Assembly: GCA_030144965.1 (NCBI GenBank)
Contig: JAMPUU010000012.1
Location: 124,001 to 188,000, forward strand
Source of the DNA: Nitrospira sp. BO4
Lineage (GTDB): Bacteria; Nitrospirota; Nitrospiria; Nitrospirales; Nitrospiraceae
Direction: 5' to 3'
Length of the DNA: 64,000 bases
Both the position numbers and the translations under genes were made by a program. The notes below the pieces were generated by a model that ran no database searches, was not told the DNA's origin, and saw only the letters and a list, made by a program, of their open reading frames with translations. Positions 53,491 to 62,725 of this stretch are shown piece after piece (position 1 is the stretch's first letter; the number at the start of each line of letters is the position of its first letter).

Positions 53491-53869
53491 CTGTACGCAA
53501 GAATTTAAGAAGATCGTCAGGACGCCATACTAGCTTGTTCAGGCAGATACGCATAAGCGCCAGACTGGCCGCTTCTATCCATGACAGAACACCACATCCT
53601 CCGTGTGTCCCGCAAGCCGGTGAGCGATAGGTCCCACATTGTGTCGTGGGCAAGGTCTTTACCGGTATGAGCCAAGGAGAAACGGCATGACAGTCATGCC
53701 TCTTCTCTACTGCACCTCTCCACTCGCGTGGTGGGACAAACTTCAACGAATCACTTCATCATGAGTGTGTCGGTCGCTCAAGAGCCTTCAATGCTAGGGA
53801 GTTTCCCAGTCCGGTTTCCGTTGAAGTGTTGATAGGAAAGAAATCGGACAGGGAGTAGCAGGCACCACC
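53491..53869. other. Intergenic stretch without a recognisable gene
   Basis: About 380 bp. A minus-strand frame 53465-53746 overlaps the reductase start, is Cys-containing but has no domain or ribosome binding site, and is not called. Confidence 0.4.
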
Positions 53870-56858: not shown

Positions 56859-57602
56859 GAACGGCACCTCAACTGGGGGGCGTATTGTAGGAGGGAAGGC
56901 CCTTACGGTGCAAGGAAGCCCTCCGAGTGACGACCTTGAATGATTCACGGCTCTTGACCCTGGGTACAAATACTGTAACCACGGGTCACATGGACTCATG
57001 GGAACACAAGGATATCCAATTCCACGAGCGGCCCGCTGTCGGCTATCAGGTTTTAGCTGGAAGATGCGATCGGATGAAAAGCGAGTGCTCTAGTAGCGCC
57101 GCCTGCAGTGGAGGGGGAACGAGTATCAAGCCCTTCGTCTCTTAAGCACCCATCACATCGAAGCACCTTCCGAACCTGGGAAGAAATCAGCGCCTAGACG
57201 CACCCCGTCCGGAGTCCCACCCAAAGAGGCATAGACCACACAAGCCGGTTTGCGTAAAGGTCAGCATCACAAGCAGGCGCAGCCAAGGGCATGACGATCG
57301 TTCAAGATCCGGTCGCACCGGGCGTTCTGGTAAGTCTCAGTGAGTTTCCGAATCGCCAGCGTATAGCACCATCACCATAACCGCCTTCCCTCTCCCATTC
57401 ATATCGTATCCGATACAGTTGGAATCCATTCCGATACGAACGCAAGATGTCTGAACTTCGAATCAAAACTTGAAAGGGACATGAATACGGTACTTTGTGC
57501 GCGTCATGACACGTGGCCTAAGAAATGCTCTAGAACGTCGCATGATCAGAGGTTGAAGAAGCCACGATGCAAAAGTCAGAAGAGAAACGAAAGGAGGCGA
57601 TC
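56859..57602. other. Intergenic stretch without a recognisable gene
   Basis: About 740 bp with no gene, RNA or repeat that I can support apart from short open frames of antisense type. Confidence 0.5.
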
Positions 57603-57776
57603 ATGAGGCTACGCTGGTCCAATGTTCTCGGCTTTGTGATGTTGGCTCCCGCCCTCTTGGTGGATAAAGCTGTTTTCCTGTACGTGCGGCACAACTCAAT
57701 GACGATCGCGATCGCATACGTGGTGGTGGGCCTTTGCCTCTCATCCTGGAGAGGTGCAGTTCGCCAACAAGCCTAA
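57603..57776 (+). CDS. Small membrane protein
   Basis: 57 residues behind AACGAAAGGAGGCGATC, an ideal ribosome binding site. It reads MRLRWSNVLGFVMLAPALLV then a second hydrophobic stretch (MTIAIAYVVVGLCLSSWRG). Function unknown. An upstream in-frame start at 57567 lacks such a site. Confidence 0.55.
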   Translation: MRLRWSNVLGFVMLAPALLVDKAVFLYVRHNSMTIAIAYVVVGLCLSSWRGAVRQQA

Positions 57777-57784
57777 TCCCTGAC

Positions 57785-57954: not shown

Positions 57955-58473
57955 TCAGCCCTCCCCTACCGTGGGCCAAGATGGGCCTCGTTTGTCCTGT
58001 CCTGGTAGCAGCGTGGTAGCAAATCCTGATGATATTAAGGAATAAAACTCCTGTGAAGGTGGGTACGTCTTGTTAACCGACCAGGAGTGTCGTGCAAGCA
58101 GCTTTGCGGCGAGGAAGGATGAAGCGAACGTGGTCAAGCCGAGGAAGAGAAGGCGTAAGTCCTGCTCTAATCCAAGCCGACCTAGATAAGCAGCAAGATA
58201 CATGAGGGCACCAAAAACCAAGAGAAATGCGCCGCTAAATGAGAGGGGCTTCCACCATGGCAGGGGCAGCCTAATGCGCTTGGTGCCAAGAGAGAAACCA
58301 ATAGCGACAAGAATTGCAGCAACCATGATGATCCAGAGGCCGAGCTGAATTGACGGCCCACGACCCCACATAGGTTCGTATTGGTCGAAACCATAGACCG
58401 CGACTGCATTTGCACCGGCAGCCCAGGTTACGAAACCGAGCGTGAAAATGGTGGTCGGCTTGAAAGGGCTCAT
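57955..58473 (-). CDS. Small multi-pass membrane protein
   Basis: 172 residues from the Met at 58473 (longer frame to 58542). About four hydrophobic segments (TIFTLGFVTWAAGANAVAVY; IIMVAAILVAIGFS; GAFLLVFGALMYLAAYLG). The last about 20 residues (TLLPGQDKRGPSWPTVGEG) cross the repeat region and are probably not original. No family recognised. It overlaps the gene at 58527 by its longer form. Confidence 0.5.
   Translation of the reverse strand: MSPFKPTTIFTLGFVTWAAGANAVAVYGFDQYEPMWGRGPSIQLGLWIIMVAAILVAIGFSLGTKRIRLPLPWWKPLSFSGAFLLVFGALMYLAAYLGRLGLEQDLRLLFLGLTTFASSFLAAKLLARHSWSVNKTYPPSQEFYSLISSGFATTLLPGQDKRGPSWPTVGEG
58004..58021 (+). repeat. GGTAGCA direct repeat, spacing 11 bp
   Basis: GGTAGCA at 58004-58010 and 58015-58021. 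The same pair with the same 11-bp period occurs at 60508-60525 near the other end of the 2.9-kb segment. Could be arm sites for a recombinase. Confidence 0.5.
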
Positions 58474-58526
58474 ACACTGGTGGCTGACAATGTTTAGTTG
58501 ATCCGCATAGGAGCCGTCATCAGTGG

Positions 58527-59199: not shown

Positions 59200-59329
59200 T
59201 TGCGAGTTGGTTTAGCAGTCGCAGGACATTGAAACGATGTTAGGAATGACGTAGTCTCTGAATCCCAAGCTGCGAGTTATACGCGCAGAATTGGGAGAAC
59301 AAGCTGTTATGTGGATCGGCCTAAACACA

Positions 59330-59336
59330 GTTAGGC
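59330..59336 (+). repeat. Core-site-like GTTAGGC upstream of the SDR gene
   Basis: GTTAGGC at 59330-59336, matching the integron crossover site G/TTRRRY. It lies 65 bp before the SDR start and mirrors GCCTAAC at 60304. Confidence 0.35.
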
Positions 59337-59400
59337 GGTACACACCACGCTCATCGGTGGCCGCAGGTCGTGTCGAACTATCACGAAGGAGGAGCAAGCC

Positions 59401-60297
59401 ATGACACAGCGTCTCTCTGGCAAGGTAGCCGTCGTCACAGGCGCCGCCTCGGGAATCGGCTTAGCAACCGTCGTCCGCTTTGTCGAAGAGGGCGCACGGG
59501 TCCTTGCCGCAGACAAGGATGGTTCGGCGCAAGTGATGCTTGAAGGACGCTTTGGGGCCGCAGTTCGCTTCGTGCGATGCGATGTGACGCAGCTGGAGGA
59601 GTTGCGTTCCGCCATAGAGACTGCTGTGGCGCACTTCGGGGGGCTGGATATTCTCTTTAACAACGCTGGTGCTGGGGGTGCTCCCGCCGGCGTTGAAGGT
59701 TTTGATGCCGCCGGCTGGGATGCTACCCATGCCCTACTTCTGCGCGCTGTGGCTGCCGGAACTGCATACGCGGTGCCGCACATGAAGCGTCGCGGCGGTG
59801 GAGCCATCATCAACACGTCGTCAGTGTCGGCGCTGCAAGCAGGCTACATGCCGCTCGCCTACTCAGTGGCCAAGGCCGGCGTGCTCCACTACACGCGCGT
59901 GGCTGCGGCAGAACTAGCGCCGCAGCGCATCCGCATCAATGCGGTGGTGCCAGGCTTCATCGCCACGCGTATCTTCGGCGGAATGTTCGGCCTCGGCAGC
60001 GAAGAGGCGCAGGGCATGGCCGAGCGGATCGCCGAGCGCAGCGGCCGGGCCAACCCAGTCGGCCGCTCTGGCCGACCGGAGGACATTGCGCAGGCTGTAG
60101 CCTTCCTTGCCAGTGATGAGGCAGATTTCATCACTGGTACGGCCCTCACCGTTGACGGTGGGTTGACGATCGGACCCCGACATAGTTGGGATATGGACCC
60201 CACGCTTGCCACGCCGATGACTGATGCGCTCGGAGTCAGCCGTGGGGAGCTGTTGGCAATGCGCGCAAACGCAATCGCGCAATCACAGAAGCGTTGA
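59401..60297 (+). CDS. Short-chain dehydrogenase/reductase (SDR)
   Basis: Classical SDR, 298 residues, slightly longer than usual (about 250) through a C-terminal tail. NAD(P) motif VTGAASGIGLATV (about 13-25), NNAGAGG (about 89), catalytic YSVAK (AYSVAKAGV) and C-terminal TGTALTVDGG. It reduces or oxidises an alcohol/ketone; substrate unknown. Ribosome binding site GAAGGAGGAGC. Its GC content is clearly higher than the surrounding AT-rich cargo, and it ends 6 bp before an attC-like element. Confidence 0.9.
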   Translation: MTQRLSGKVAVVTGAASGIGLATVVRFVEEGARVLAADKDGSAQVMLEGRFGAAVRFVRCDVTQLEELRSAIETAVAHFGGLDILFNNAGAGGAPAGVEGFDAAGWDATHALLLRAVAAGTAYAVPHMKRRGGGAIINTSSVSALQAGYMPLAYSVAKAGVLHYTRVAAAELAPQRIRINAVVPGFIATRIFGGMFGLGSEEAQGMAERIAERSGRANPVGRSGRPEDIAQAVAFLASDEADFITGTALTVDGGLTIGPRHSWDMDPTLATPMTDALGVSRGELLAMRANAIAQSQKR

Positions 60298-60303
60298 CGT
60301 GCC

Positions 60304-60360
60304 GCCTAACCCCTCGCTCAACACCGGACCCTGCACGGCTGGCGCGGGTTCCTCGCTCTT
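60304..60360 (+). repeat. attC-like element after the SDR gene, truncated
   Basis: Starts GCCTAAC (60304-60310), continues with CTCGCTCAACACCGGACC and later GGGTTCCTC, the order R'' - L'' - loop - L' known from integron gene cassettes. The final R' (GTTAGGC) is missing before the sequence changes. Confidence 0.45.
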
Positions 60361-60507
60361 TCTATTCCAGGACCGATCAGGGATAGGACCATGCCGCGCA
60401 CACCCGGAAAGATCGGAAAGAAAAAACCGGGGGCCTTGGATCGATTAGATGCGATTGTCACAGACGAGTGTAATTACGTAGGCTTTAAAAGGCCCGCCGT
60501 GGCTCGC

Positions 60508-60525
60508 GGTAGCAAAACGGTAGCA
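60508..60525 (+). repeat. GGTAGCA direct repeat, spacing 11 bp
   Basis: GGTAGCA at 60508-60514 and 60519-60525, the same arrangement as at 58004. It lies about 210 bp before the right direct repeat core. Confidence 0.5.
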
Positions 60526-60596
60526 GAAGTGGATAACACACAGAATCCCCAGACCGGAGAGGTTGTGCAAATACCTGACTTCCCATGGGGAATTAC

Positions 60597-60632
60597 TGGA
60601 GCCGGCGACCCGGATTGAACGGAGCAACCTGT
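60597..60632 (-). repeat. tRNA 3'-half-like fragment D
   Basis: Plus-strand GGCGACCCGGATTGAACGG followed by GCAACCT; as the complement, a T arm and acceptor 3' end similar to fragment C but more degenerate. Confidence 0.4.
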
Positions 60633-60650
60633 CATCGGTTCGGCCCTGAA

Positions 60651-60748
60651 GCCTGCCTCACCGATTCCTACGAAGGGGGCCAGCCCCCTTGTAAAATCCC
60701 CACGAAGGGGACACATCCCCTTCGAATCCCCTCAGGTCGCCCGTTCAA
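60651..60748 (+). repeat. Direct repeat, right copy, of the 2.9-kb segment
   Basis: Contains the full 66-base unit found at 57785-57850 but with an internal partial duplication: an extra hairpin AAGGGGG-ccag-CCCCCTT precedes the CGAAGGGG hairpin. Ends with the 15-mer AGGTCGCCCGTTCAA at 60734-60748. Confidence 0.7.
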
Positions 60749-60814
60749 CACAGTGGACCGAGGCCCGCCGCTAGTCCGCAGGCACCATATTATACAAACA
60801 GCTTTGCGCGATAT

Positions 60815-60862
60815 GGAGCAGGCGACCCGGATTGAACGGGCGACCTGCGGTTTACGAACACG
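60815..60862 (-). repeat. tRNA 3'-half-like fragment C
   Basis: Minus strand reads CGTAAACCGCAGGTCGCCCG then TTCAATCCGGGTCGCC, a 3' half with variable region and T arm. It contains the inverted copy of the 15-mer at 60832-60846. No 5' half nearby. Confidence 0.55.
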
Positions 60863-61465: not shown

Positions 61466-62725
61466 TCAGACCCCAAGTGCCAAGCTTTGCTCGATCAGCA
61501 CTGCAGCACGTGATGCCCCTCCGCTCGCGTGGGTAGCGTCCCGGACCCGTGCAGCGGCGGCACGGTAGGATGGGTCGGACCGTACACGGACCACCGCGGC
61601 GCACAGCGTCTGCGGAGTCACCTCCTTGGGGGGAATGGACTCACCCGCCCCAATCCAGGCGACGCGGGCGGCGACTCCCGGCTGCTCATTGGTAACAGGG
61701 ATCGCCACCATCGGAAGCCCGGCACCCAGCGCATCGAGAACGGTGTTCAGACCGGCATGGGTCACCGCAATGGTAGACCGTCGGAGCAGGTCTCCTTGAG
61801 GGGCATAGGAAACCACCACTGGGTTCCCAGGAAGTTTCCCAAGCGCCTCCGGGGATATCCCATTTCCGGTCGAGAGTACCAATTGGGCGTCAACTCCCTC
61901 ACAAGCCTCCGCAATCACTCGAAACATCCTCACGATACGATTCTGCAGTGTTCCCAGCGAGGCATAGATTAATGGTCGTCCATCGAGCCGTTCCCAAGGA
62001 AATGGAACCGGCTGAGTTCCGACCGATCGCTGGAGGGGACCAACGAACCGAATGTGCTTCGGTAACCCACGCCGAGGGAACTCGAATCCATCGGGTTGTT
62101 GACTAATTTGTAGCCTGTCAGACCACACGTTCGACATGCCTGCCGGGATCGATAGACGAAGCCTGCGGCGATGGTTCTGAATGCGTGTGACGATTGGAGC
62201 ATACAGTCGGTTGAGTCCTGCCCATGCGATCCGATTGCGAATCCGTGCCCACCAGGCGTCCCGCGGTTGCCAGTGGGTAAAGTACGGTGGGACGACGGGG
62301 TCAGGGTTCAGGAGGAGCGCATTACAGATTGTCGCGAACGGGAGCCCGAGCTGGTCGGCAAGGGTACCACCGGGAAACGATGCCTGATCAACCACCAGGG
62401 CGGTCACACCGGCGGCACGCACGACAGCCGGGCCGACTTCTAGAATCGCATCAGCCGCGCGTGCACCGATTGCCAGGGTATGCTTGAGCGCTGCCCGGCC
62501 CTGGAGTGAGCCGAGCGTTTGAAACTCGGCCTGATACTGATCAGCCGGGAAGATTGATCCTCCGACAGGAACGCTCTCAAACCCAGCCGCCGCGATCGAT
62601 GAAGGAGGCGCGCCTAACAGGAAGAAGGTGACTCGGTGACCACGGGCGCGGGTCGCGTCGGCCAGCGCCAACATTGGATTCACATGACCTGGAGTATTCG
62701 GGCAGAGAACGCCGATGTGACCCAT
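61466..62725 (-). CDS. GT1 family glycosyltransferase (CrtX/MGT-like)
   Basis: 419 residues, two-domain GT-B fold. N-terminal NTPGHVNPMLALADATRARG, and C-terminal donor-binding segment VTHAGLNTVLDALGAGLPMV followed by TNEQPGVAARVAWIGAGE, as in zeaxanthin glucosyltransferase and macrolide glycosyltransferases. It transfers a sugar to a small lipophilic acceptor; substrate unknown. Monocistronic; no carotenoid genes are next to it. Confidence 0.85.
   Translation of the reverse strand: MGHIGVLCPNTPGHVNPMLALADATRARGHRVTFFLLGAPPSSIAAAGFESVPVGGSIFPADQYQAEFQTLGSLQGRAALKHTLAIGARAADAILEVGPAVVRAAGVTALVVDQASFPGGTLADQLGLPFATICNALLLNPDPVVPPYFTHWQPRDAWWARIRNRIAWAGLNRLYAPIVTRIQNHRRRLRLSIPAGMSNVWSDRLQISQQPDGFEFPRRGLPKHIRFVGPLQRSVGTQPVPFPWERLDGRPLIYASLGTLQNRIVRMFRVIAEACEGVDAQLVLSTGNGISPEALGKLPGNPVVVSYAPQGDLLRRSTIAVTHAGLNTVLDALGAGLPMVAIPVTNEQPGVAARVAWIGAGESIPPKEVTPQTLCAAVVRVRSDPSYRAAAARVRDATHASGGASRAAVLIEQSLALGV

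Follow-up and report, generated by a model that had tools for sequence, protein, structure and literature searches.

The DNA analysed here (the window) is a 64 kb stretch of a 4.7 Mb Nitrospira genome (G000:C12:124001-188000). The sequence AGAGGAGCGCGGAATTCC, a Nitrospira 16S probe site that we take to be the Ntspa662 target, occurs once in this genome and on one strand only; the reversed control gave 0 occurrences. At the centre of the locus is a gene encoding an SDR-family dehydrogenase (Table 1). The open reading frame matches PF13561 (1.5e-57) and PF00106 (6e-45) and has the features of a classical SDR oxidoreductase, these being an adh_short domain, a cofactor motif (TGxxxGIG, present as TGAASGIG) and an active site (YxxxK, present as YSVAK), together with NNAG. 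Both the cofactor motif and that of the active site are intact, and the protein matches many solved SDRs. A Shine-Dalgarno-like site precedes the gene, and a promoter scan, which is weak evidence, found no sigma-70-like site for it.

An earlier note on this DNA, made from the letters alone, had described the SDR gene as richer in GC than its surroundings, and the difference is large: 63.5% for the gene versus 56.5% for the window and 49.9% for the 55.0-59.3 kb segment. Among 631 windows of 900 bp, only 3 have a GC content as high as that of the gene. No homologue exceeding ~41% identity was found in the genus outside the species, and searches of genome contigs, plasmids and viral contigs brought up nothing closer than distant SDRs of ~45% identity. 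Judging from this low identity within the genus and from the high GC content, the gene is foreign to Nitrospira. The locus is 100% identical in a second genome of the same species (G082), and thus an assembly error is unlikely.

Table 1 Features of the SDR locus and of the window around it (window positions)
Feature	Position	Strand	Evidence
Probable third attI right-end remnant (weak), upstream of the minus-strand gene 53490-53002	53534-53580	-	E=1.1e-4 in the window; 0.015 genome-wide
tRNA-Thr-like scar, left edge of the segment	57862-58034	+	Matched by DNA of many relatives
Probable second attI right-end remnant (weak), immediately upstream of the minus-strand gene that ends at 57955	58470-58516	-	E=5.9e-5
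attI-family site, divergent solitary copy; crossover expected at G59330/T59331	59208-59336	+	HMM, sequence model, fold
GTTAGGC, R site of attI and putative left cassette boundary	59330-59336	+	Sequence; conservation collapses just after GTTA
Shine-Dalgarno-like site AAGGAGGAG of the SDR gene	59386-59394	+	Read from the sequence
SDR-family dehydrogenase gene, putative cassette cargo, 298 aa	59401-60297	+	ORF; Pfam domains
GCCTAAC, putative R'' of a truncated attC	60304-60310	+	Rank with left-half attC matrix
CCCTCGCTCAACACCGGACC, putative spacer and L''-like arm belonging to the truncated attC, with no L'-R' partner after it	60311-60330	+	Matrix, covariance and complement searches
75-aa ORF; from ~60421 a C-terminal remnant of the tyrosine integrase that adjoins tRNA-Thr in relatives	60391-60618	+	Homology to L127-L130
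tRNA-Thr-derived scars (60597-60748 and 60814-60858), right edge	60597-60858	-	88-98% matches in relatives' DNA, at tRNA-Thr genes or close to them

The GTTAGGC that the earlier note had seen before the SDR gene is present and proved to be the end of a longer conserved sequence. Comparison with relatives gave DNA matches to 59218-59343 in other genomes, and the consensus of the aligned relatives reads ...GTGTTATACGGACAGAAATGGGCAGATCCGGCTCTTATGCGGATCGGCCTAAACATAGTT before the sequences diverge. An HMM made from 42 copies of this repeat in other species, with every copy of the own species left out, matched 59208-59348 with E=4.2e-21 (69.4 bits); the shuffled-window control gave no matches whatever and was not used as a statistic. 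With a second sequence model (R1) the window copy scored E=2.1e-14 against the whole genome, and the site folds strongly (z=-4.2). Most columns of the alignment carry 1-1.8 bits of information up to GTT and at most 0.5 bits a few bases later. Hence, conservation stops at the crossover expected of an attI, which in the window falls at the GTTAGGC beginning at 59330, and in relatives cassettes come after that point. The sequence to the left of the SDR gene is, on these relationships, a divergent copy of the attI of a Nitrospira chromosomal integron. It has neither the left nor the right arm that accompanies many other copies (see below). The attI consensus found no match in plasmids or viral contigs. 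The repeat was also considered as an attC in its own right and rejected, since its left end bears no R'', it is preceded by intI and separate attCs follow it.

The position of the repeat relative to integron integrase genes supports its assignment. In one genome (G085), 28 bp separate the repeat from the end of a complete IntI gene upstream on the same strand (464 bits, the TIGR02249 cut-off being 265), and in another (G077) a partial IntI precedes the repeat in the same arrangement. Other Nitrospira IntI genes are followed by a different attI with a similar end (...CTAAACATTGTTATGC, ...CTCAATAGTTAGGC). Such integrases are few, only 8 of the 79 genomes of the genus having an IntI above the cut-off, and no full intI was present in the 1.45 kb of sequence analysed at any of 30 loci picked by attI score alone, a few of which retain the intI 3' end. 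The window copy likewise has no intI beside it and so is no complete integron. The earlier note had placed the SDR gene away from any integron integrase; this holds for the whole assembly, in which no IntI above the cut-off was found. The best candidate, a XerC/D-like recombinase at C16, was rejected as an IntI as it lacks the integron-specific segment. At one attI copy of another genome (L125, G084:C16:11409-11846) the usual order is reversed, an IntI C-terminal fragment lying downstream of the repeat.

Copies of the attI are widely dispersed. The 158-bp repeat occurs in 66 of the 79 genus genomes, and the attI sequence model has matches in 117 of the 196 genomes from the order, distributed over 11 genera; a single genome has up to 17 copies. 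The genome of the window has 8 copies at E<1e-4. One of them (L112, G000:C7:141177-141334) is followed by an ATPase-like gene and another (L113, G000:C12:696456-696613) by a cassette with a complete attC. Many copies share a left arm starting CGACCCAAAGCAG, and a right arm (TTAATGCGACAGGGCTGAGGACCGCTTTA...) is conserved after the last attC of the array; left arm, attI and right arm therefore make up a dispersed unit of ~300 bp. In one copy (L089, G050:C8, near 1650) the attI is joined straight to the right arm; it is an empty docking site. In tandem elements the right arm adjoins the next left arm. Loci L106-L111, L123 and L124 are dispersed elements with both arms conserved, several of them in tandem. 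We had considered that the attI rides in a gene-less cassette and dropped this idea because the right arm and the empty L089 copy indicate a fixed element that receives cassettes. Thus, a ~300-bp attI element without intI, usually followed by one to a few cassettes, is present in most Nitrospirales genomes, and we infer that the copies have spread through these genomes. It is about an even bet that the Nitrospirales have a distributed integron composed of multicopy ~300-bp docking sites with an occasional IntI serving in trans, instead of one platform beside intI.

The DNA downstream of the repeat was examined for attC sites. A structural scan of 52 such regions gave 19 attC-like sites with scores of at least 11 versus 1 in shuffled DNA. 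Twelve of these sites fold as attCs do, with R''/R' and L''/L' paired and with bulged or unpaired bases, and compensatory changes were seen in 5 of the 12 pairs of the attC consensus fold. An attC covariance model found 31 sites in 35 loci selected by attI, all on the attI strand (some of the 31 had been in the training set, most had not), and the control, 75 kb of other genomic loci, gave 1 site. From their covariation and common strand, these sites are genuine attCs at loci that had been chosen by attI alone.

At the 3' end of the SDR gene only half of such a site is found. As the earlier note had reported, GCCTAAC begins 6 bp past the stop codon, and the attC-like arm CCCTCGCTCAACACCGGACC follows directly. 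The heptamer alone occurs at chance frequency (3 copies in 64 kb versus 3.6 expected), and its significance comes from position and context. A matrix for the left half of attC, trained on 18 Nitrospira attCs, ranked 60304 third among the ~128,000 window positions with 11.7 bits, versus 12.9-29.4 bits in true sites. A left-half HMM ranked the position second, with E=2.4 when no positional prior is applied. The left half is convincing only together with its placement 6 bp past the stop on the right strand. The missing distal half was correctly noted by the earlier reader: the L'-R' complement (GGTCCGGTGTTGAGC) occurs elsewhere in the window at chance level only. Scanning the window strictly for R''...R' pairs returned no attC beside the SDR gene, the attC covariance model gave only chance-level matches and no complete attC at the gene or elsewhere in the window, and a DNA search of the SDR 3' flank against plasmids gave short chance matches only. 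The proposal that the gene is an integron cassette thus stands as to the attI end and the half attC and fails as to a complete, folding R''-L''-L'-R' attC. The gene is a single open reading frame, poor in promoter sequence and read away from the attI, as is expected of a cassette, and on this architecture we call it a putative truncated cassette rather than an intact one. The same SDR with an intact attC was not found in relatives. The earlier note had named two observations that would speak against a cassette, lack of an attC fold and SDR orthologues of relatives at the same locus without cassette flanks. The first was seen (60303-60380 gave no fold). The second was not, as the genus offers nothing closer than the distant homologues given above and the one identical copy, in G082, has the same flanks.

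The locus lies in an island related to tRNA-Thr genes. The earlier note had spoken of a tRNA-scar element, and both tRNA-Thr-derived scars and an integrase remnant do flank the SDR locus (Table 1). The remnant is the next recognisable sequence to the right of the broken attC. Two weak attI matches farther left (Table 1) mean that the window may hold three attI-derived sites. Also in this region, a 461-bp sequence (57319-57779) is a recent internal repeat of the genome, with 98% identity to C17:82967 and 92% to C15:3428. Beside the island on the minus strand is a macrolide-family glycosyltransferase gene (61466-62725), which has 73-83% DNA identity in several relatives.

IntI is established to join the bottom strand of an attC to attI. 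Very probably, the SDR gene is a cassette that was inserted in this manner by an IntI at a solitary Nitrospira-family attI (G59330/T59331) and later lost the right side of its attC. The IntI would have acted on the attC bottom strand of the SDR cassette, either in trans or before a resident intI was lost, and after insertion GTTAGGC would have lain to the left of the gene and the attC to its right. The SDR gene would thereby come to stand in first position, read away from the attI and equipped with a ribosome-binding site of its own. The right half of the attC was probably lost later, when the tRNA-Thr island was rearranged. As R' is gone, normal excision at that end is probably no longer possible and, given that no IntI was found in the genome, the cassette is probably stranded.

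The SDR could instead be an island gene of ordinary horizontal origin that happens to lie downstream of an attI relic, the GCCTAAC and L'' arm being coincidental. The missing attC fold and the E value of 2.4 for the left half would be as expected of such a gene. However, two independent boundaries are found where a cassette should have them, one an exact attI end and the other an R''-L'' half on the right strand just past the stop, and for a third-ranked position of 128,000 to fall within ~35 bp of its predicted place has a chance of ~1 in 1000. We consider this coincidence unlikely. It is very unlikely that the upstream repeat is a promoter or leader element preceding accessory genes rather than an attI. 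The repeat stands before many genes, and gene-less cassettes that bear promoters are known (PMC11014356), yet it also lies directly 3' of intI, its conservation stops at G/TT, attC-bearing cassettes come after it and the empty copy marks the insertion point. The attI repeat may also carry a promoter, as attI regions often do. We can give almost no credence to the secondary-site capture suggested by the earlier note, in which the cassette entered a GTT site at random, outside any integron: the own genome has no IntI above the cut-off and the locus is within a tRNA-scar island, but the GTTAGGC before the gene forms the right end of an attI-family site that follows intI elsewhere, and the 120+ bases left of the crossover that match this family (E=4e-21) are not expected of a secondary site.

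The single SDR cassette inserted at attI is in itself ordinary, and the interesting part is the dispersed integrase-free attI. The usual picture of integrons is of one attI beside one integrase gene. Copies free of intI in most genomes of an order suggest that these nitrifiers capture more cassettes than has been counted, at many scattered loci, and the attI model provides a simple means of finding such cassettes. In the literature searched, which took in few subscription journals and no bioRxiv preprints, no description of dispersed solo attI in the Nitrospirales came up, and the element appears to be undescribed there. Its layout presumably recalls that of class 1 attI1 (two direct repeats, then a CCTAAA(A)CA.AGTTAGGC-type core), a resemblance to be taken as a lead only, but the Nitrospira attI consensus had no alignable match in 72,556 plasmid records.

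Comparison with known systems places the Nitrospira loci near several of them. In Archaea, attI lies directly 3' of intI and is semi-conserved across phyla (PMC9668308). With sedentary chromosomal integrons the Nitrospira loci share the attI G/TT crossover, folding attCs on one strand and a genus IntI above the TIGR02249 cut-off. They differ in that intI is upstream of attI on the same strand, and in that most attI copies are solitary, at several loci per genome and with short arrays. With CALINs, which IntegronFinder defines as at least two attC sites without intI (PMC9024848), they share cassettes and attCs lacking intI (PMC9024848), whereas each Nitrospira locus has its own attI and, often, a conserved arm on either side. 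The SDR locus, with half an attC in a window that holds no complete one, is no CALIN by this definition and would escape CALIN reporting. For Nitrospira, IntegronFinder 2.0 listed no more than two CALINs, each of them in N. inopinata; it does not detect attI outside class 1 and by default does not report lone cassettes (PMC9024848). The unusual attI-type cassettes of mobile integrons likewise have an attI or partial attI away from the intI-adjacent position (PMC12901181). In those, however, single resistance cassettes carry attI in place of their attC (PMC12901181), whereas in Nitrospira attI occurs as a chromosomal repeat in multiple copies, situated upstream of arrays.
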